This document shows, in pieces, positions 3,510-32,844 of a DNA stretch of 61,359 bases; the stretch's first letter is position 1, and each line of letters starts with the position of its first letter. Location of the stretch: assembly GCA_017519415.1 (NCBI GenBank), contig JAFWSI010000033.1:1-61359 (forward strand), written 5' to 3'. A program made the translations under genes and the position numbers. The stretch comes from Ruminococcus sp. (GTDB lineage: Bacteria > Bacillota > Clostridia > Oscillospirales > Ruminococcaceae). The notes below the pieces were generated by a model. That model was not told the origin of the DNA. It did not search any database and saw only the letters and a program-made list of their open reading frames with translations.

Positions 3510-4976
3510 TTATCCTTTCTTTTTAGGCTGTTTTTCGGGTATCTGTATAAGGAATTCCGTGTATTCTCCGTATACGCTCTTTACAACTATATGACCGTGG
3601 TGAAGATGCACTATCTTTCTCGATATTGCAAGGCCGAGACCGAGGCCTGTGGTGTCCTTGCCTCTTGAGGAATCGGTCTTGTAGAACCTGTCGAACACCT
3701 GTGTTATCTCGTCGTTCTTCAGACCTTCGCCCGTATTCTTTATGCCTATGGTGCACATACCGTTTACGGATCGTTCAAAGCGGAATGTGAGAGTACCGCC
3801 TTCGTTTACGAATTTTACCGCGTTTTCCACGAGGTTGTATACTACCTGCTGTATGAGATCGGGATCCACGTCTGCGGACATACGCTCGCTTCCGAGTCCC
3901 TCCACCTCAAGGTGCTTGTCCTCGATCTTTTTCTCAAACATGAGGACGGTCTGTATAACTATCTCCGTAAGGTTATAGTCGCGGAAATTCGGACGGAGAG
4001 TGCCCGATTCAAAACGGGACATATTCAGCATTGAGGAAATGAGTATCCTCAGACGCTTTATCTCCTTTGATACAAGGTCAAGGTATTCCACCTGACGGCT
4101 CTTGGGTATGGTGCCGTCGAGGATACCATCCACAAATCCGCCTATGGTAGTGATAGGAGTCCTGAGCTCGTGGGAGACATTGGCTATGAAGGTCTTGCTG
4201 GTCTCCTCGCTCTTGGCAACGTCATCCGCTACAGCGTTGACGTAATCGGCTATTTCGTGGTTGGTATTGGGAACGTCAGTGGGTATCTTCTCCGAGAAGT
4301 CGCGCTTTGCAAACTGCTCACTTATGCGCCTGAATTCGCTTTCGTATGCCGCCAGCTTTGCAAAGCGGTGCTTTATGAGAAGCAGCTGGAGCAGTATGCT
4401 CAGTACGCAGAAAAGCGAGTAGGCAATGGCTATCTTGAAGGAAAACGAATTTATATCATTTGAGCGGCTGTAGATCTTCGCATACATACGGGTGGGTATG
4501 ACCTCGTTCTCGCCCTTTATGAAGAACACCGTACCGTACAGCACATAGGGCTTGTCGGTGGAGATGTTCTGGGTGTCAAAGTCGAGGTAATCCTTGCCGT
4601 CCAGCTTTTTCATCTCATCCACGGACATCTTTTCACTGTTTTTTATGATCTTACGCGGCTCGGGATCGTAATCCGCGTCTGAGAGGACGCAGTTGCCGTT
4701 TTCGTCATAGAGATATATCATCAGGCGGTATTCGGCGGAAAACTCCTCATGCAGGCTTTTCGTCATCTCCGAGCGTATATCCAGAGACTTGGAGTAATCC
4801 TTCTTGACGCAGCTTATGAAAAGGTCGCCTATGGACTGGACCTCGCCGAGCTTTGCGGATTTGTATACAGACGAGCTGACAGTTATAAGTATAACGCCTA
4901 TGAGTATATTTATTGAAAGAACGATAAATACCAGGTATCTGAAAAGCTTGTCGTAGGAGCTCTTTTTCCCTTTCAA
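3510..4976 (-). CDS. Sensor histidine kinase
   Basis: 488 residues. A first membrane helix (about 12-34), an extracellular sensor region (35-177), a second helix (about 178-201), a HAMP-like linker, a HisKA domain with His269 in NVSHELRTPITT, and a HATPase domain with N box (NLVENAVKF), G1 and G2 motifs (TGLGLGLAI). It should phosphorylate the response regulator encoded just upstream. The start is TTG at 4976, supported by AGAGGTGA 7-8 bases upstream; no better ATG is near. A hairpin lies between it and the regulator gene. Layout and gene order resemble PhoR/VicK-type systems coupled to an HtrA protease. Confidence 0.92.
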   Translation of the reverse strand: MKGKKSSYDKLFRYLVFIVLSINILIGVILITVSSSVYKSAKLGEVQSIGDLFISCVKKDYSKSLDIRSEMTKSLHEEFSAEYRLMIYLYDENGNCVLSDADYDPEPRKIIKNSEKMSVDEMKKLDGKDYLDFDTQNISTDKPYVLYGTVFFIKGENEVIPTRMYAKIYSRSNDINSFSFKIAIAYSLFCVLSILLQLLLIKHRFAKLAAYESEFRRISEQFAKRDFSEKIPTDVPNTNHEIADYVNAVADDVAKSEETSKTFIANVSHELRTPITTIGGFVDGILDGTIPKSRQVEYLDLVSKEIKRLRILISSMLNMSRFESGTLRPNFRDYNLTEIVIQTVLMFEKKIEDKHLEVEGLGSERMSADVDPDLIQQVVYNLVENAVKFVNEGGTLTFRFERSVNGMCTIGIKNTGEGLKNDEITQVFDRFYKTDSSRGKDTTGLGLGLAISRKIVHLHHGHIVVKSVYGEYTEFLIQIPEKQPKKKG

Positions 4977-5042: not shown

Positions 5043-5750
5043 TTATTCCTCTTCTTCTGCTTCAAATTTATATCCCACGCCCCATACAGTCTTGAGGGTC
5101 CATTTGTCGGAAACGCCTTCGAGCTTTTCGCGGAGACGCTTGATATGAACGTCTATAGTTCTTGAGTCGCCGTAGTACTCGAAGCCCCAGACCTCGTCAA
5201 GGAGCTGATCGCGGGTATAAACTCTGTTCGGATTGGAAGCAAGGTAATAAAGGAGCTCCAGCTCCTTCGGGGGAGTATCGATATTCTTTCCGTTTACCTT
5301 CAGCTCGTAGCTGTCCATATTAACGGAGAGCCTGTCGTAGTGTACTTCCTTTGATTCCGGCTCGGCCATACCTGTTCCCACGCGGCGTGTTACAGCGTTG
5401 ATACGGGCAATGACCTCCTTTGCGTCAAAGGGCTTTACTATATAGTCGTCCGCACCGAGCTCAAGACCTATTACCTTGTCTATGGTCTCGCCCTTGGCGG
5501 TTATCATTATTATCGGAACGTTGGAGATCTTTCTAATCTCGCGGCATACCTGCCAGCCGTCCTTACCCGGAAGCATAATATCGAGCAGCACCATATCGGG
5601 GCTAAGAGCTTTGAATTTAACGACAGCGTCGTCGCCGTCGTGACAGAGAAGAACGCTGTAACCGTCTTTTTCAAGGTAAAGTCTGAGAAGATCGCAGATA
5701 TTTTTATCATCGTCAACTATCAGGACCTTTGGATTTTTTTCGTTGGCCAT
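5043..5750 (-). CDS. OmpR/PhoB-family response regulator
   Basis: 235 residues from the ATG at 5750, which has GGAAGGAAGG 10 bases upstream. An in-frame start 27 bases earlier would put that site inside the gene. The receiver domain holds the acidic pair (IVDDD, 11-15), phosphoacceptor Asp57 (VLLDIMLPG), Thr (MITAKGE) and Lys (IVKPFD). The C-terminal winged helix includes SRTIDVHIKRLREKLE. It is first in an operon with the kinase and HtrA-like protease and has a consensus promoter. Confidence 0.94.
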   Translation of the reverse strand: MANEKNPKVLIVDDDKNICDLLRLYLEKDGYSVLLCHDGDDAVVKFKALSPDMVLLDIMLPGKDGWQVCREIRKISNVPIIMITAKGETIDKVIGLELGADDYIVKPFDAKEVIARINAVTRRVGTGMAEPESKEVHYDRLSVNMDSYELKVNGKNIDTPPKELELLYYLASNPNRVYTRDQLLDEVWGFEYYGDSRTIDVHIKRLREKLEGVSDKWTLKTVWGVGYKFEAEEEE

Positions 5751-5793
5751 TGTATGGATACCTTCCTTCCGTATCAAATATTATATTAAGTTA

Positions 5794-5840: not shown

Positions 5841-6557
5841 TTAATACCTCAAGCCGTTTCCGCATACTGCCGGATACATTCTTGCGAACGTATCGCAGAC
5901 GGCGCATATCAGCTCTGTATTTGTCGGTCTTTCGTCAAATCTGCCTTCCGTAAGCCTGTATACCGATGAGGTGAGCGTCATGTGGCTGCCAAGGTTCCTT
6001 AAAGCCCTTTCCACGAGGGAGGGCTTTGTGCCGAAGCTCCCTGCAACCTCCTCGTATATACCGGTCATACCGCCCCACAGTCTTTCGGGAGCCCTGAGAC
6101 AAAGCTCTGATGCCTTTGCAAGGTAGTAAAAGCCCTGAAGATTTCTCGGAAAGCCGTATTCCTCGAGAAATATCTCTATCTGCGTCAGCAGACCGCCATC
6201 GGCGCCGATATATATCATTATTCTGCGGCAGAGCTCGTTTACAGAGCAGGGCATGGTGAAGCAGCGTGCCGCTCCCGCCTTGCGGAATGTATCGTATACG
6301 GCGGGCGACGGATCGTACAGTCCGATAAATACCTTGATCCCCTTCTGTTTCAGGCGTTTTATCAGTTCCGACAGCTTTTTGTCGTGGAAAAACGCGAACA
6401 GCATGACGCTGCTGTAGGAGCGTTCCGTGCATCGTGCCTCTATATCTGACAGAAACCCGCGGCAGCAGTCTGCGGGTATGCCGCTGTTTGTGAACCTGCG
6501 TGCCAGCAGTCTGCCGAGAGAGACGGAAGAGTCGCATATAAGCAGTTTTTTCTCCAT
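5841..6557 (-). CDS. Spo0A-like protein with degenerate receiver domain
   Basis: 238 residues. Residues about 122-228 match the Spo0A C-terminal DNA-binding domain: GFPRNLQGFYYLAKA, GGMTGIYEEVAGSFGT, a recognition-helix region KPSLVERALRN and PTNTELICAVCDTF. The N-terminal 1-115 looks like a receiver fold but keeps only one residue of the acidic pair (CDSS) and has LFAFFHDKK where the phosphoacceptor Asp should be, so it is unlikely to be phosphorylated. A GGGGGG ribosome binding site precedes the ATG. It starts 36 bases after the last Tim44-like gene and may share its promoter at 9320-9348. A true Spo0A could be elsewhere; the target of this one is unknown. Confidence 0.75.
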   Translation of the reverse strand: MEKKLLICDSSVSLGRLLARRFTNSGIPADCCRGFLSDIEARCTERSYSSVMLFAFFHDKKLSELIKRLKQKGIKVFIGLYDPSPAVYDTFRKAGAARCFTMPCSVNELCRRIMIYIGADGGLLTQIEIFLEEYGFPRNLQGFYYLAKASELCLRAPERLWGGMTGIYEEVAGSFGTKPSLVERALRNLGSHMTLTSSVYRLTEGRFDERPTNTELICAVCDTFARMYPAVCGNGLRY

Positions 6558-6593: not shown

Positions 6594-7566
6594 TTATTTT
6601 ATGGTGTGCTGCGACAGGCCGGTGATATTGCTGAGCGCCCAGTTGAACCTGTCGGAGGTCAGGAGAGTTCCGCAGAACTCACACTTTGCCGTCTGATTTA
6701 CCATGACCTTAGCGCCGCATTTCGGGCATGTCACCTCAATTGCCACGGAGGAATCCTCGGTCTTCATGCCCGAGGTCCTTATCATGGTCCATTCGTATAC
6801 CATGTTCTTTCTCGAGGTCTTGTTCCCGCGGATCAGCGCTCCCGTGACGTCGTCCTTGACGTAGTCGATGATATAGGTGCGGAGCTGTACTATTATCATA
6901 TCCTTGCCGCCGTCCTGACGCCAGCCGAGTATCTCTGTGCCGAATACCGAGATCTTTTCGATACAGTTGGTCTGCTTTTTGGTGCGGTATTTATCCAGCT
7001 CCCGTTCCATCTGAGCATAGAACGCGTCTGTCATGTTCGGGCGGAATGAAGATATATCCTTTTCCTGCCAGCCCTTTTGGAGGCTCACATAGAGCTCGGA
7101 GACAGTACTTTTGAAGGCTTCGGGCGAGAAGGAAGGGTCAAGGCTGAGGTATTCGGATATGGGGCGGAGCTTGTGGGAATCGTCGGAAAGCTTTGCTTCA
7201 CGCTCCTTCTTCTTTTCGGCTCTGCGTGCACGGCGCTTTGCCCTGGCTTCATCGATATTCATAATGATTATACCGATAACGGTAACGACAAGCACCACGA
7301 CTAACGCAAGAAGTATGAACTCCTTGTTCTATACCGAAGCAGCCGTCGCAGCCCATACAGCCGCTGCTGTCCTCCTCTGTACTCCCGCTGTATTGGGGAG
7401 CTGTGGTAGGAGTTTCCACCTCCCATATGCTGTCGTAGTCGTAATCGCTTTCGCCTGCGATATTGCCGAAGTCCTTTTCGGGATCGTCTGCGTGAGCGCC
7501 GAGAGGTATAAGGAATATGCTTATGATAAGCAGTAATACCGCAAAAAAACTGCCTTTTTTCTTCAT
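6594..7566 (-). pseudogene. Tim44-like/zinc-ribbon membrane protein, paralog 1 (frameshifted)
   Basis: Two reading frames together make one protein. The first (7566 to about 7330) has a signal peptide, an acidic linker and a Cys-rich CMGCDGCFG. The second, up to the stop at 6594, gives a membrane helix (EFILLALVVVLVVTVIG), an Arg/Lys-rich stretch, a Tim44-like domain (DPSFSPEAFKSTVSELYVSL) and a zinc ribbon (CPKCGAKVMVNQTAKCEFCG). Skipping one base near 7326-7331 joins them. Without that, the first frame runs into 27 unrelated residues ending at 7249 and loses the membrane helix. The second frame could be read alone from GTG 7298. Real mutation, programmed frameshift and sequence error all remain possible. 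The role of the family is unknown; Tim44-like domains bind membranes or translocation partners. Confidence 0.75.
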
Positions 7567-7585
7567 ATTTCCTCCTTTATGTGTT

Positions 7586-8386
7586 TCAGGGAGTTATTTC
7601 CTTTATACTGCTTAGTATCCAGTCAAAATCCGACGATCTTAACATACTGCCGCAGTAGGGGCATTTTGCAGACTGGTTCATTTTTACGTCTGCTCCGCAT
7701 TTCGGACAGGTCTGGCTGGTGATGCCGGAATGCCCCGAGGACTTTGCATCGGAGCTGCGGACGAGCTGCCATTCATGGGTGCTGAATTTTTCCGCTGTGG
7801 GACTGCCGCTGATTACTTTGTCCGTGCCGTCCTGTTTTATATAGTCCACAGCTCTTGTGTTCATACGTATGAACATTATATCCGAACCGTTCACATTTTT
7901 CCAGCCTACAAGATCGGTGCCGAGAACGGCAACGCGCTCTATATAGTTGGTCTAGCCTTTCTGTTTCAGATCAGCGATCATGTCCTTGAGCGAGTTTATC
8001 ATATCTTCCGTGAGGTACGGTGTGAGTTCTTCAACATTCTTATCCTCGATACAGTTCTGCAAACGGATATAGAGATTGGCAACTTTTTCCTTGAATTCCG
8101 AAGGCGAAAAATCAGGCTCCTTTGCCATGTAGGAGTTGATATTGTTCAGCTTGTTTTTGACCATTGACTTGCGGATCTGAAATTTATCTGATTCAATGGT
8201 TTTCTGACTTTTGATATAATAAGCAAAGCCGAATATAACTGCAATAATCATTAAAACGAAAAGAACAAAACCAAAGTCCCTGTCTGTTCCTGACTCATGT
8301 ATGCTGATAATACAGATTATTAACGGTACAATGAAAATACTTATGAATAATATGGCAGTAAGATTATTTTTTCCGGAATTCTTCAT
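7586..8386 (-). pseudogene. Tim44-like/zinc-ribbon membrane protein, paralog 2 (internal TAG)
   Basis: A single frame of 266 codons is interrupted by one TAG at 7952-7954. Before it: two hydrophobic helices (about 10-28 and 38-57) and the Tim44-like half (EPDFSPSEFKEKVANLYIRL). After it: TNYIERVAVLGTDLVGW and a zinc ribbon (CPKCGADVKMNQSAKCPYCG). In paralogs 1 and 3 the aligned residue is Gln in QTNC, so TAG most simply comes from CAG by one C-to-T change. The start at 8386 has AAGGAG and lies 3 bases after the stop of paralog 3. It would be intact if the amber codon were suppressed; otherwise it is a truncated gene. Confidence 0.8.
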
Positions 8387-8389
8387 GAT

Positions 8390-9288
8390 TTACTCCTTGT
8401 TTATCATTGATTTTTTTACTGTACGCTGAGATATTCCTCTGATATTGCGTACTGCCCAGTCGAATTTTTCCGCTTCAATTACGGTTCCGCAGTAATTGCA
8501 GACAGCGGACTGGTTCACGTCCACACGGGCGCCGCATTTCGGGCAGGTCTGTTCCGTAATGCCGGCGGAGCGTGAGGATATGACGCCTGTGGTGCGGACA
8601 AGGGTCCATTCATAGCACATGTATTTTTCTTCATCCCTGCTTCCGCGCACGATGTCGCCGGTATTGTCATCCACAACGTAATCGGTTATTTTTGTATCCA
8701 GCATTACCACCATTATATCCGTGCCTTTTTCCTGTTTCCAGCCTCTTATAAGTACATTGAGCACAGAGATGTCCTCGACGCAGTTGGTCTGACCGTTTTT
8801 GCGGTATTTGTCAAGCTGCCTGTCCATCTGATCGAACAGCGCCGAAGTAAGATAAGGCCTGAGCGATGATATGTCCTTGCGCTGCCATTCATTCTGGAAG
8901 AGAACATACAGCTCCGAGATCTTTGTTTTGAATCTGGCGGGCGAGAAGCTTGGGTCGATCTTATTATAATCGTCTGTTTTTGCAGTCCGGTAATATTAAA
9001 ATCAGACGAGTTATATTCAGCACCCATAAGCCGTTTGTTTTCTTTTTGGCTGTATATAACCAGCGGTATTAAAATGACTGTGCTGCTAAGCATACATAGA
9101 ACGACACACAGCCCCTCTTCAGGGGTCAGGGGCTCGACGTTGCCGCTGCTGTCGCTGTCGCCGCCACCGCCGCCGTAGTCGGAATCGCCGGAGAAGTCGC
9201 CGAAATCAAGTGCCCTGACCCTGACGGGTATGATGACCAGTCCGATCAGGACAGCGATCAGAGGAATGAGCTTAAGTATTTTTTTCAT
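8390..9288 (-). pseudogene. Tim44-like/zinc-ribbon membrane protein, paralog 3 (frameshift in A-run)
   Basis: From ATG 9288 (AGGGGG upstream) the first frame gives a signal peptide, a Gly/Asp/Ser linker, a membrane helix and FNITGLQKQ. The frame then changes at a run of five A (T-run on the plus strand, 8977-8981). One extra A would restore DDYNKIDPSFSPARFKTK, which aligns with paralog 1, and carry on to the zinc ribbon (CPKCGARVDVNQSAVCNYCG) and the stop at 8390. I checked 8827-8971 in that frame and found no stop. It is the first gene of the three-paralog operon. Homopolymer slippage, mutation or sequencing error could explain the break. Confidence 0.8.
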
Positions 9289-9565: not shown

Positions 9566-12019
9566 ATGCTGAAAAAACTGACAGGCGGAGTTCTTTCCGC
9601 TGTCCTTCTGGCAGCCTCGGCCGTATCGCCGCTACCGACGGGCGTTATGGACGCAGATGCGGCAGACGGAAAATTCAATTATGCAGATGCGCTTGACAAG
9701 TCCCTGTACTTCTATGAGGCACAGCAGGCAGGACCTCTGCCCGAATGGAACAGAGTTGAATGGAAGGCCGATTCCGCTATGCAGGATCCTGTTCTCGGCG
9801 GCTGGTTCGACGCAGGAGACCATGTCAAGTTCAATCTTCCTATGGCTTATTCGGCTTCCATGCTGGCATGGGGACTTTATCAGTATCCCGAGGGCGTAGC
9901 GAAGGCAGGTCTCAAGGAGACATATGTCAATAACCTCGAGTTCGTTCTCGACTATCTTGCAGACTGCGACAAGGGCTCGGAGGTAGTGTATCAGGTGGGT
10001 ATCGGCAAGCATGACCACACATGGTGGGGTCCTGCCGAGCTTCTGGAATACGGTATGGTGGATAACTCACATTCAATTGACGAAGCCCGTGCCGCTCTCA
10101 AGTCTTCAAAGGGCTGTACTGCGGTATTCGGCGAGATGGCAGCGGCTCTTGCAGCAGGTGCGGCAGCCCTTGACGGAGATATTTCCGCAAACAAGAAGGC
10201 TGACTACATAAAGCACGCAGAGAATATATACAATCTGGCAAAGGCTAACCCCAGCGATGATGTATACAACGCAAGCGACGCTCAGGGCTTCTATCAGTCG
10301 AGACATCTTTACGATCAGCTCTTCTATGCAGCAAACTGGATGTACATCGCAACGGGAGACAGCGGCTACCTTGAAGACGCCAAGGGCTATATCCCCAAGC
10401 TTGACAAGATGCTGGGCGAGGGCGATACAATAGCTTACGGCTGGTGCCACTGCTGGGACGATAACCTTCAGGGCGCTATGCTCCTCTATGCTATAAATAC
10501 AGAGGATTCAAGCGCCATTGCACACGTAAAGAAGCACATCGACCGCTGGATAAGCGGCGAGGAGGAGAAGACCGTATCAGGCGGACTCCGCTGGCTTGAC
10601 AGCTGGGGCTCACTCAGATATGCCAATACGGCTGCTTTCCTTGCTTCGGTAGCAAGCGACACTATCCTCAAATCCGAAACCGATAAGTATATGCAGTTCG
10701 CAGAGACTCAGGTAAACTACTCTCTCGGCGACAATCCCGACAAGCGCAGCTATATGATCGGCTTCGGCGATAAGTATCCCCAGAATCCTCATCACCGTAC
10801 AGCTCACGGTTCATGGAAGAACTCGGTATATGATCCTTCACATACACGCCATATCCTCTACGGAGCTCTCGTAGGAGGCCCCAATCAGGACGGCTCATAC
10901 AAGGACAGCCGTGACGACTTCATCAACAACGAGGTGGCTACGGACTACAACGCAGGCTTTACTGCAATGCTCTGCAAGATGATCGACAAGTACGGCGGTA
11001 CAAAGGATCCTTCCTTCCCTCAGCCCGAGACCCACGACGGTCCCGAGTTCTACGTTGAGGTGCTGTCAAAGGGCGGCGATTCAAGCGGACAGACCATAAG
11101 CTTCAAGGTGACAAACCACTCTGCATGGCCTGCAAGAGTTGAGGACAATATCTCTTTCAGATACTTCATGGACCTCAGCGAGGTTATCTCGGCAGGCAAG
11201 AAGCCCGAGGATCTCGTTATCCGCTGCGACCGCGACCAGGCACAGATGTACGCAAGCAAGGGATATAAGGCGGCAGAGATCTCAAAGCCCATTCAGTACA
11301 GCGGAAACATCTATTACATCGAAGTTAAACTTCCCGACGGACGTGTGGTTCTTCCCATATCCGAGGGTCAGCAGCAGTGCGAGATACTCCTTGCGCTTGT
11401 AATGCCCGATTACGGCAGCGGCTGGGATTCCTCCAACGACTTCTCGGCAAAGGCGCTCGGCAAGACTTCCACAGGAGCAGACGGCTCTGTGATTGGTGTT
11501 ATGTCTCCCTATGTTCCCGTTTACCTGAACGGTAAGCTCTACTACGGTGAGGAGCCCGACGGAACAAAGGCTGACGGTATGGGCAGCTCGGGCAGCAGCA
11601 ATCCCAGACCCACGACCACAACTACTACCGCAAAGCCTACCGAGACTACCACAACTACAACTACCACAGCGGAAACAACGACTACTACGAAGGAGACCGC
11701 TACAACTGTTACAACTACCGCGGAACAGGTGACAGTAACCACTACAACTGCCAAATCCGGCGACGACGGTCCCGACAGCGTTACAAAGTACGGTGACGCA
11801 AACTGTGATGACGGTGTGGATATGGCTGACGCCGTGCTTATCATGCAGTCCATCTCAAATCCCAACAAGTACGGACTTGAGGGCTCGGATTCTCACCATA
11901 TCACAAAGCAGGGCAAACTTAACGGCGACGTTGAGGGCAACAGGAACGGTATAACCAATCTTGATGCGGCAAAGATACAGAAGTATCTCCTCGGCGCTAT
12001 AAGCAGCCTTGAAGCCTGA
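9566..12019 (+). CDS. Cellulosomal GH9 endoglucanase with CBM3c and dockerin
   Basis: 817 residues. A signal peptide ends near residue 33 (DADAADGK). The GH9 catalytic domain (about 35-475) has GGWFDAGDH with Asp82 and Asp85 as base/nucleophile-side residues, His410 in PHHRTAHG and Glu456 (NNEVATDYNAGF) as the acid. A CBM3c-type module (about 493-660) gives the theme-B layout typical of processive endoglucanases. A Thr-rich linker (about 681-730) leads to a C-terminal dockerin (742-815) with two calcium-loop repeats (GDANCDDGVDMADAV; GDVEGNRNGITNLDAAK). The enzyme should cut cellulose outside the cell while docked on a scaffoldin. Single-gene unit with its own promoter and terminator. Confidence 0.96.
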   Translation: MLKKLTGGVLSAVLLAASAVSPLPTGVMDADAADGKFNYADALDKSLYFYEAQQAGPLPEWNRVEWKADSAMQDPVLGGWFDAGDHVKFNLPMAYSASMLAWGLYQYPEGVAKAGLKETYVNNLEFVLDYLADCDKGSEVVYQVGIGKHDHTWWGPAELLEYGMVDNSHSIDEARAALKSSKGCTAVFGEMAAALAAGAAALDGDISANKKADYIKHAENIYNLAKANPSDDVYNASDAQGFYQSRHLYDQLFYAANWMYIATGDSGYLEDAKGYIPKLDKMLGEGDTIAYGWCHCWDDNLQGAMLLYAINTEDSSAIAHVKKHIDRWISGEEEKTVSGGLRWLDSWGSLRYANTAAFLASVASDTILKSETDKYMQFAETQVNYSLGDNPDKRSYMIGFGDKYPQNPHHRTAHGSWKNSVYDPSHTRHILYGALVGGPNQDGSYKDSRDDFINNEVATDYNAGFTAMLCKMIDKYGGTKDPSFPQPETHDGPEFYVEVLSKGGDSSGQTISFKVTNHSAWPARVEDNISFRYFMDLSEVISAGKKPEDLVIRCDRDQAQMYASKGYKAAEISKPIQYSGNIYYIEVKLPDGRVVLPISEGQQQCEILLALVMPDYGSGWDSSNDFSAKALGKTSTGADGSVIGVMSPYVPVYLNGKLYYGEEPDGTKADGMGSSGSSNPRPTTTTTTAKPTETTTTTTTTAETTTTTKETATTVTTTAEQVTVTTTTAKSGDDGPDSVTKYGDANCDDGVDMADAVLIMQSISNPNKYGLEGSDSHHITKQGKLNGDVEGNRNGITNLDAAKIQKYLLGAISSLEA

Positions 12020-16550: not shown

Positions 16551-18312
<1,762 letters not shown>

Positions 18313-27018: not shown

Positions 27019-27600
27019 TTATGCCAGCTTCGGAGTATAGCCCGTTGCCTTAGTAAGTATAAAGTCCGTCAGAACTATCACCAGCACTGTCAGCGCGATG
27101 ATGTTCAGGGTCTTCTTTTTCGGCTTTGAAAGAAGCCGGTCATATATGGGCTGGACTATATACATGAACAGCAGACCGCCGAGTCCGAAGCGGACCGAGG
27201 TATTCAGGGCTATACGCGCCTGGAAATTGTACTTGTACCTTGCGTAGGTCTGCCAAGGCCATGAGCCCTTGGTGTATTCGAGTATGTATGTGGCGGCCAG
27301 CTCAACGGCTGTGGCAACTGCCATACAGCCCAGAAAGATCAGGAGCGGCTTGACTATATTCAGCCATTTTACGTCCTTCTTCTTCATCAGCCGTCCGAAG
27401 CACAGCAGGAAGAGCAACGCTCCCACTCCGTATATGGGACAGTACGGACCGAACATTTCGCCCCTGTTGTGAAAGCCCCAGCGGTAGACCACTACCTCGA
27501 GGAACACCTCGTAGCACCAGCCCAGCACCGCATACATCCAGAAGCAGAGAAAGAGCTTCTGAGGCGTCTGTTTTTCCAATAATTCCTTTAATTTAGCCAT
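27019..27600 (-). CDS. CmpB-like putative ABC transporter permease, copy 1
   Basis: 193 residues, same family and helix layout as its neighbour (FWMYAVLGWCYEVF, GEMFGPYCPIYGVGALL, ARIALNTSVRFGLGG). It starts 4 bases after the purN stop, so it is translated in the purine operon. No ATP-binding partner is nearby. The C-terminus is slightly longer than in copy 2. Confidence 0.85.
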   Translation of the reverse strand: MAKLKELLEKQTPQKLFLCFWMYAVLGWCYEVFLEVVVYRWGFHNRGEMFGPYCPIYGVGALLFLLCFGRLMKKKDVKWLNIVKPLLIFLGCMAVATAVELAATYILEYTKGSWPWQTYARYKYNFQARIALNTSVRFGLGGLLFMYIVQPIYDRLLSKPKKKTLNIIALTVLVIVLTDFILTKATGYTPKLA

Positions 27601-32625: not shown

Positions 32626-32844
32626 TTATCTGTAGGCGGGATCCACATAGGGCTTGCCGTCCTTGTCGAGTATGGGCACGATACGGGTGCCGCCGTAATA
32701 GGAGTGGGTGGCCGTATAGCATACTCCCGTCATCCTGTCCATGAGGACGTCGTATCTTACGTTGTTTATCACCTGTGACGAGGTGAGCCTGAAGCGCTTG
32801 GGCTTTTCCGGATTTGCGGACTTTTCCGCCTTGCTTCCGAACAT
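32626..32844 (-). CDS. Small DUF6440-type protein
   Basis: 72 residues from ATG 32844 (GGAGGAGG upstream). The MTGVCYTATHSYYGGTRIVP and LDKDGKPYVDP pattern matches the DUF6440 family of short Firmicute proteins, function unknown. No signal peptide or membrane helix. A related, apparently broken copy lies directly upstream. Confidence 0.78.
   Translation of the reverse strand: MFGSKAEKSANPEKPKRFRLTSSQVINNVRYDVLMDRMTGVCYTATHSYYGGTRIVPILDKDGKPYVDPAYR

Follow-up and report, generated by a model that had tools for sequence, protein, structure and literature searches.

Three adjacent Tim44-like/ribbon genes of a Ruminococcus genome, each broken by one lesion, are probably young pseudogenes

A stretch of Ruminococcus sp. 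DNA of 61,359 nucleotides (contig JAFWSI010000033.1 of assembly GCA_017519415.1), which we call the window, carries three tandem genes of one membrane protein family with a Tim44-like domain and a C-terminal zinc ribbon, and each of the three is broken by a lesion of its own. We read these genes as young pseudogenes and the function of the family as lost in the window's lineage, a reading to which we assign a probability of about 0.73. The available genome yielded three copies of the family, all broken and none clearly canonical. In the proposed course of events each gene would have taken one inactivating change, namely the loss of one base in a short A-run (P3), a stop codon (P2) or the gain of one base (P1), and translation would then give truncated products without the ribbon. 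A tandem, membrane-anchored family beside a conserved two-component system would thereby have been left with no clearly canonical copy at its usual place. The lesions, their clustering, the lack of an intact copy in the available genome and the altered P1-type copies of relatives are observed; we infer that the lesions also exist in the organism itself, are of recent origin and leave products without function. Gene loss of this kind is ordinary; what makes the case mildly unusual is that every copy of a family kept by relatives would be gone.

The array occupies positions 6594 to 9288 of the minus strand and runs from 9288 towards 6594 in the order P3, P2, P1, with intergenic gaps of about 3 and about 19 bases. 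P3 (8390..9288, minus strand) and P1 (6594..7566, minus strand) each encode a signal/acidic segment, a membrane segment, a Tim44-like domain and a ribbon, while P2 (7586..8386, minus strand), the second gene, encodes two predicted membrane segments, assigned by reading, together with a Tim44-like domain and a ribbon. All three end in a four-cysteine ribbon of the form C-x2-C ... C-x2-C, and the P1 protein is 52% identical to P3 and 35% identical to P2. A frame-aware alignment located one lesion in each gene: a -1 frame loss at a run of five A near 8979 in P3, directly before the Tim44-like domain; an in-frame TAG at 7952-7954 (minus strand) in P2, inside that domain; and a +1 frame change near 7332 in P1, between the acidic and the membrane segments. 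A reading of the sequence alone had claimed exactly this set, three tandem paralogs with an A-run frameshift, an in-frame TAG and a one-base frameshift, and every gene and lesion was recovered. Its further statement that every break parts the N-terminal membrane segment from the ribbon needs correction for P1, in which the break comes before the predicted membrane segment, leaving it together with the ribbon. All three frames are thus interrupted relative to uninterrupted relatives, as expected of pseudogenes. The column of the P2 TAG is Gln in 20 of the 27 aligned rows; among 19 canonical copies it holds Gln in 14, Glu in 3 and Thr in 2. Judging from the structure model, the stop would fall at about the transition between the helical part and the sheet of the Tim44-like domain. 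Each gene keeps its ATG with a purine-rich stretch ahead of it (GGGGG, AAGGAG and AAGGAGG), and these intact start regions, together with the single lesion per gene, suggest youth.

Profile and structure searches place the proteins in the Tim44-like family (Pfam PF04280, gathering cut-off 29.6 bits). Scores above the cut-off were obtained for the downstream piece of P1 (85.6 bits), the upstream piece of P2 (37.9) and the downstream piece of P3 (45.8), the downstream piece of P2 alone reached 18.4 bits, under the cut-off, and four intact relatives tested scored 64-88.6 bits. The ribbon matches all stayed under Pfam's cut-offs, and profile matches against the PDB were all to Tim44 and weak (E 0.008-0.07). 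For the downstream piece of P1 we predicted a structure from a 4-row alignment (mean pLDDT 78.5, the five models ranging from 51.7 to 78.5; pTM 0.68). A structure search with this model returned as its top match the C-terminal domain of human Tim44 (2cw9, E 4.3e-7, TM 0.53 by query), followed by yeast Tim44 and then a mitoribosomal subunit, and on this basis the P1 downstream piece is predicted to have the Tim44 fold.

The array nonetheless departs from the Tim44-like family as otherwise defined. Its proteins add the four-cysteine ribbon at the C terminus and signal/acidic and membrane segments at the N terminus; its genes are tandem copies beside a two-component system, and nothing in this analysis links the array to protein import. 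P1 also weakly matches the Tim44/TimA family putative adaptor protein (NCBIfam NF033779; 33.9 bits, 2.9e-8), and the scores of 33.9 and 19.0 bits against this model lie far under its curated cut-off of 80 bits. The architecture of the array was absent among the matches listed in literature searches on Tim44/TimA with a zinc ribbon in bacteria or Firmicutes, and a literature search on Ruminococcus pseudogenes or frameshifts in paralogs found nothing. The closest known class is that of frameshifted prokaryotic pseudogenes collected with GeneTack, to which, as far as the accessible part of that paper describes them (PMC3711429), the array is alike in having breaks limited to close kin, no recognised recoding motif and truncated products. 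Relative to that same partial account it differs in that three adjacent paralogs are hit together and that the available genome yielded no intact copy. This combined Tim44-like and ribbon membrane family is little described; close relatives retain it, and its P1-type tandem copies have been altered repeatedly, so that the array lends itself to studying the role of the copies and the conditions under which losing them pays.

The surroundings of the array are intact and largely shared with relatives. Directly downstream lies a gene for a Spo0A_C-containing regulator (5841..6557, minus strand; PF08769, 1.7e-13), which 14 of the 16 relatives checked also have next to the array, and behind it a response regulator with receiver and Trans_reg_C domains (5043..5777, minus strand; 97.5-99.6% identical in 16/16) and a histidine kinase (3510..4976, minus strand; 74-81% identical in 16/16). 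The Spo0A_C gene evolves fast, being 49-58% identical in relatives, and so sits as a variable gene between the array and a highly conserved response regulator. On the other side a long intact open reading frame (9566..12019, plus strand), whose product we take to be a glycoside hydrolase of family 9, is present in the fetched stretches of 11 of the 16 relatives. A search of the same genus matched 24 of 125 genomes, the window's own included; three of these (G022, G082 and G087) match only at about 4e-4 and were left out, giving 20 other genomes with a clear match. All 20 hold an uninterrupted copy of at least 298 aa, and 19 hold a canonical uninterrupted one; only G078 does not, its array being cut off by the end of the contig.

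We then compared the array genes with the copy types of the relatives on a tree built from the Tim44-like and ribbon part. P2 groups with the C-type copies of G101 and G063 (support 99), and P1 with P2 and the C-type and P1-type copies (support 71). P3 joins the second and third copies of G010, that of G078 and the B-type copies of G101 and G063 at a weak support of 54, a group that does not include the B-type copies of G065 and G143. Of the 78 columns that are invariant in 16 canonical copies P3 differs at 11, within the 9-29 of 78 seen in spare copies, whereas canonical copies depart at 0-3 of 67-70 invariant columns in a comparison set that includes P3. These departures and the weakly supported tree place speak against P3 being a canonical copy, and they imply that the canonical copy either is missing or turned into P3 after relaxation; by its sequence P3 looks like a spare copy or a relaxed canonical one. 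Relaxed constraint after the break may underlie these 11 departures, yet intact spare copies depart likewise. Scaled to the histidine kinase, the distance of the P3 downstream half is 2.09, inside the 1.52-2.12 of the other genomes, although in absolute terms it is the most distant of all (0.55 against 0.37-0.44). Going by its sequence, this half does not look old and neutral, which fits a young break and at the same time is a point against the pseudogene reading.

The relatives show that one copy type is altered again and again. The P1-type copy is altered in six of the seven other genomes that have it and whole in G143. It has suffered a deletion with a frame change in G019, two frame changes (reference residues 66 and 76) and a deletion in G035, a deletion, a frame change and the loss of one ribbon cysteine in G064, and a TGA at reference residue 80 with a deletion in G072; in G067 and G071 the deletions are in-frame, and these two copies may still be translated. 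Apart from one place in G072, the other genes in the compared stretches of these six genomes keep their frame. The breaks of G035 and G072 lie close to that of P1 (residue 64) and are unlike it and one another in type and direction (+1, -1 twice, stop). The paired genomes G064 and G072 have distinct P1-type lesions. For this pair dN/dS is 0.16-0.17 in the P1-type pieces and 0.03 in the canonical copy; for each of them against G035 the values are 0.13-0.20 and 0.06, and among G019, G067 and G071 they are mixed (P1-type 0.09-0.44, canonical 0.16-0.28). Of the 20 changes in the G064/G072 P1-type pieces 8 are nonsynonymous, below the neutral expectation (binomial 1.6e-4), so either the losses are recent or the pieces retain some use. 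B-type copies are uninterrupted in G143, G101, G065, G063 and G126, C-type copies in G101 and G063, and the second and third copies of G010 are uninterrupted as well; since these copies are mostly intact, the decay of spare copies is not general and recurs only for the P1 type. It is conceivable, and we hold it to be rather improbable, that losing a spare copy is favoured and not merely tolerated, P1-type copies having been long under selection and broken afresh at the tips in most species that have them. If that were true, an envelope-linked product would at times be a liability, for instance as a phage or bacteriocin target, and the window's lineage would be the extreme case, with no intact family copy remaining.

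The three lesions stand out against an orderly background, which bears directly on the main rival, a local sequencing or assembly error in a draft whose living source has three intact genes. An in-frame test covered 48 window intervals, some of them antisense ORFs, that a protein from a relative spans over 70% or more of their length with an identity of at least 50%; two belong to the Tim44 locus, and frame changes were found in none of the other 46. By reading, the stops flagged in covered intervals fall close to an end of the ORF in the relative, within antisense ORFs or, as at 27142 and 27052, in an out-of-frame extension across a gene that reads intact in its own frame with 88% identity. 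In addition, 43 long open window genes contain 114 homopolymer runs of five or more, and with the 46 intervals in frame this means that the window has no general error problem. A coding-potential scan, which is not fully sensitive as it detects two of the three array lesions, flagged 7 junctions in 255,662 bases of other contigs, and the six inspected were five ordinary ATG starts and one likely break. We reject general assembly error in view of these in-frame genes, the runs in open genes and the few breaks in other contigs. As rough figures that mix detection methods, the Poisson probability of three breaks in 2.7 kb is 8e-7 with a background of 2 breaks in about 314 kb, and 1.6e-5 with the window alone as background. 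The sequence-only reading had also noted one other clear break in the window, and it does exist, in a small gene near 33,050-32,900 (minus strand) too short for the covered-interval test; relative to its L106 homolog (a further one is in L105) the ATG is replaced and an A-run is one base shorter, which gives this gene, too, the look of a young pseudogene. Behind it, at about 32630-32840, comes a related small open frame. Elsewhere, at L080 (G000:C70) near 17300 on the minus strand, an in-frame TAA lies in a putative metallophosphoesterase gene, named by reading.

A local error is nevertheless unlikely to explain the array. The source is a draft of 75 contigs that is 74.87% complete, and the P3 lesion sits in an A-run like the small-gene break at 33 kb, but the lesions differ in kind, one being a stop codon and one lying outside any long run, and the large deletions in the relatives' P1-type copies are no product of base-calling errors. 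The related genome G126 lends the error reading some colour, its third and fourth Tim44 copies being broken by one-base changes in A-runs. G126 shows many apparent frame changes and stops (L054, L081-L086) against its neighbour G063, which is about 95% identical: 14 of the 80 G063 genes found in it are flagged, these two copies and 12 of 78 others (seven with a frame change and five with nothing but a stop, a part of which may reflect ORF ends or ORF overlap), and the reverse comparison flags 7 of 86. G126 is probably a poor assembly, and with 12 of 78 other genes flagged we do not count its two Tim44 breaks as evidence of decay; the case illustrates that assembly quality needs testing before decay is called. 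The same G126 breaks, with the A-run of P3, the tandem arrangement of membrane proteins and the frequent alteration of P1-type copies, could be taken for phase variation, in which slippage or recombination among the copies would switch the genes reversibly. We regard this as very improbable. No homopolymer run of six or more, the repeat looked for as a sign of slippage, was found at any of the three array breaks, which speaks against slippage switching; the run in P3 has five bases, compared with the about nine nucleotides at which, according to the excerpt of PMC1088944 available, selection against A/T runs becomes evident in a large share of genomes. The P2 lesion is a single stop codon with no repeat, the G126 breaks occur in an assembly with numerous further apparent breaks, and exchange between copies is unlikely given the 52% and 35% identity of P1 to its neighbours.

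Recoding, in which P1 and P3 would undergo programmed frameshifting and the P2 stop would be read through, is the least probable of the readings we weighed. In its favour, both halves of the array genes read as good protein, the P2 TAG occupies a column in which Gln predominates, few genes end in TAG (1 of 49 in the window; 3 of 117 long coding ORFs from the window and 255 kb of other contigs), and the G035 and G072 breaks near that of P1 could be put to use for a recoding or hot-spot reading. Those breaks, however, differ in kind and direction, and two of the copies concerned carry large deletions as well; canonical copies have open frames across all three break places, the P1-type copy of G143 is whole, and no break conserved along with a signal, as programmed frameshifting or read-through would show, was found in the relatives. 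We found no coding signal behind the TAG of the three TAG-ended long ORFs and no CUA tRNA among 24 tRNA matches in the incomplete genome, results that also speak against a genome-wide reassignment of UAG. That the pieces work as shorter proteins, the P1 downstream piece resembling relatives naturally without the signal/acidic segment, strikes us as only slightly less improbable than switching or recoding. This piece keeps its membrane segment, Tim44-like domain and ribbon, an AAGGAG lies at the P1 break, three uninterrupted copies lack the signal/acidic segment (the second of G010, the third of G101 and the fourth of G063), and the G064/G072 pieces are on average under purifying selection. On the other hand, the earliest start codon listed for the P1 downstream piece, the GTG at 7298, lies within the membrane segment and about 20 bases past the AAGGAG, and the Tim44-like domains of P2 and P3 are cut short either by the break itself or by the earliest start listed behind it. 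The sequence-only reading had left decay, phase variation and recoding side by side; the repeated alteration of P1-type copies makes decay into young pseudogenes the best supported and leaves the other two unsupported.

In the order as a whole, 85 of 394 genomes match the family profile, many only in the ribbon part. A distant Tim44-like copy occurs within the genus in G067:C15 (L060; 4443-5246, plus strand), on a contig other than that of the G067 array, with 28% identity over a matched part that ends before the ribbon. A possible further broken copy occurs in another taxonomic family, at G276:C107:38962-39905: its two halves are matched separately, in stretches that overlap, and a TGA is present. 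In another genus, G283:C20:32542-37385 holds five consecutive family matches, all of them open frames, so tandem arrays of the Tim44-like/ribbon family are not limited to the genus of the window.
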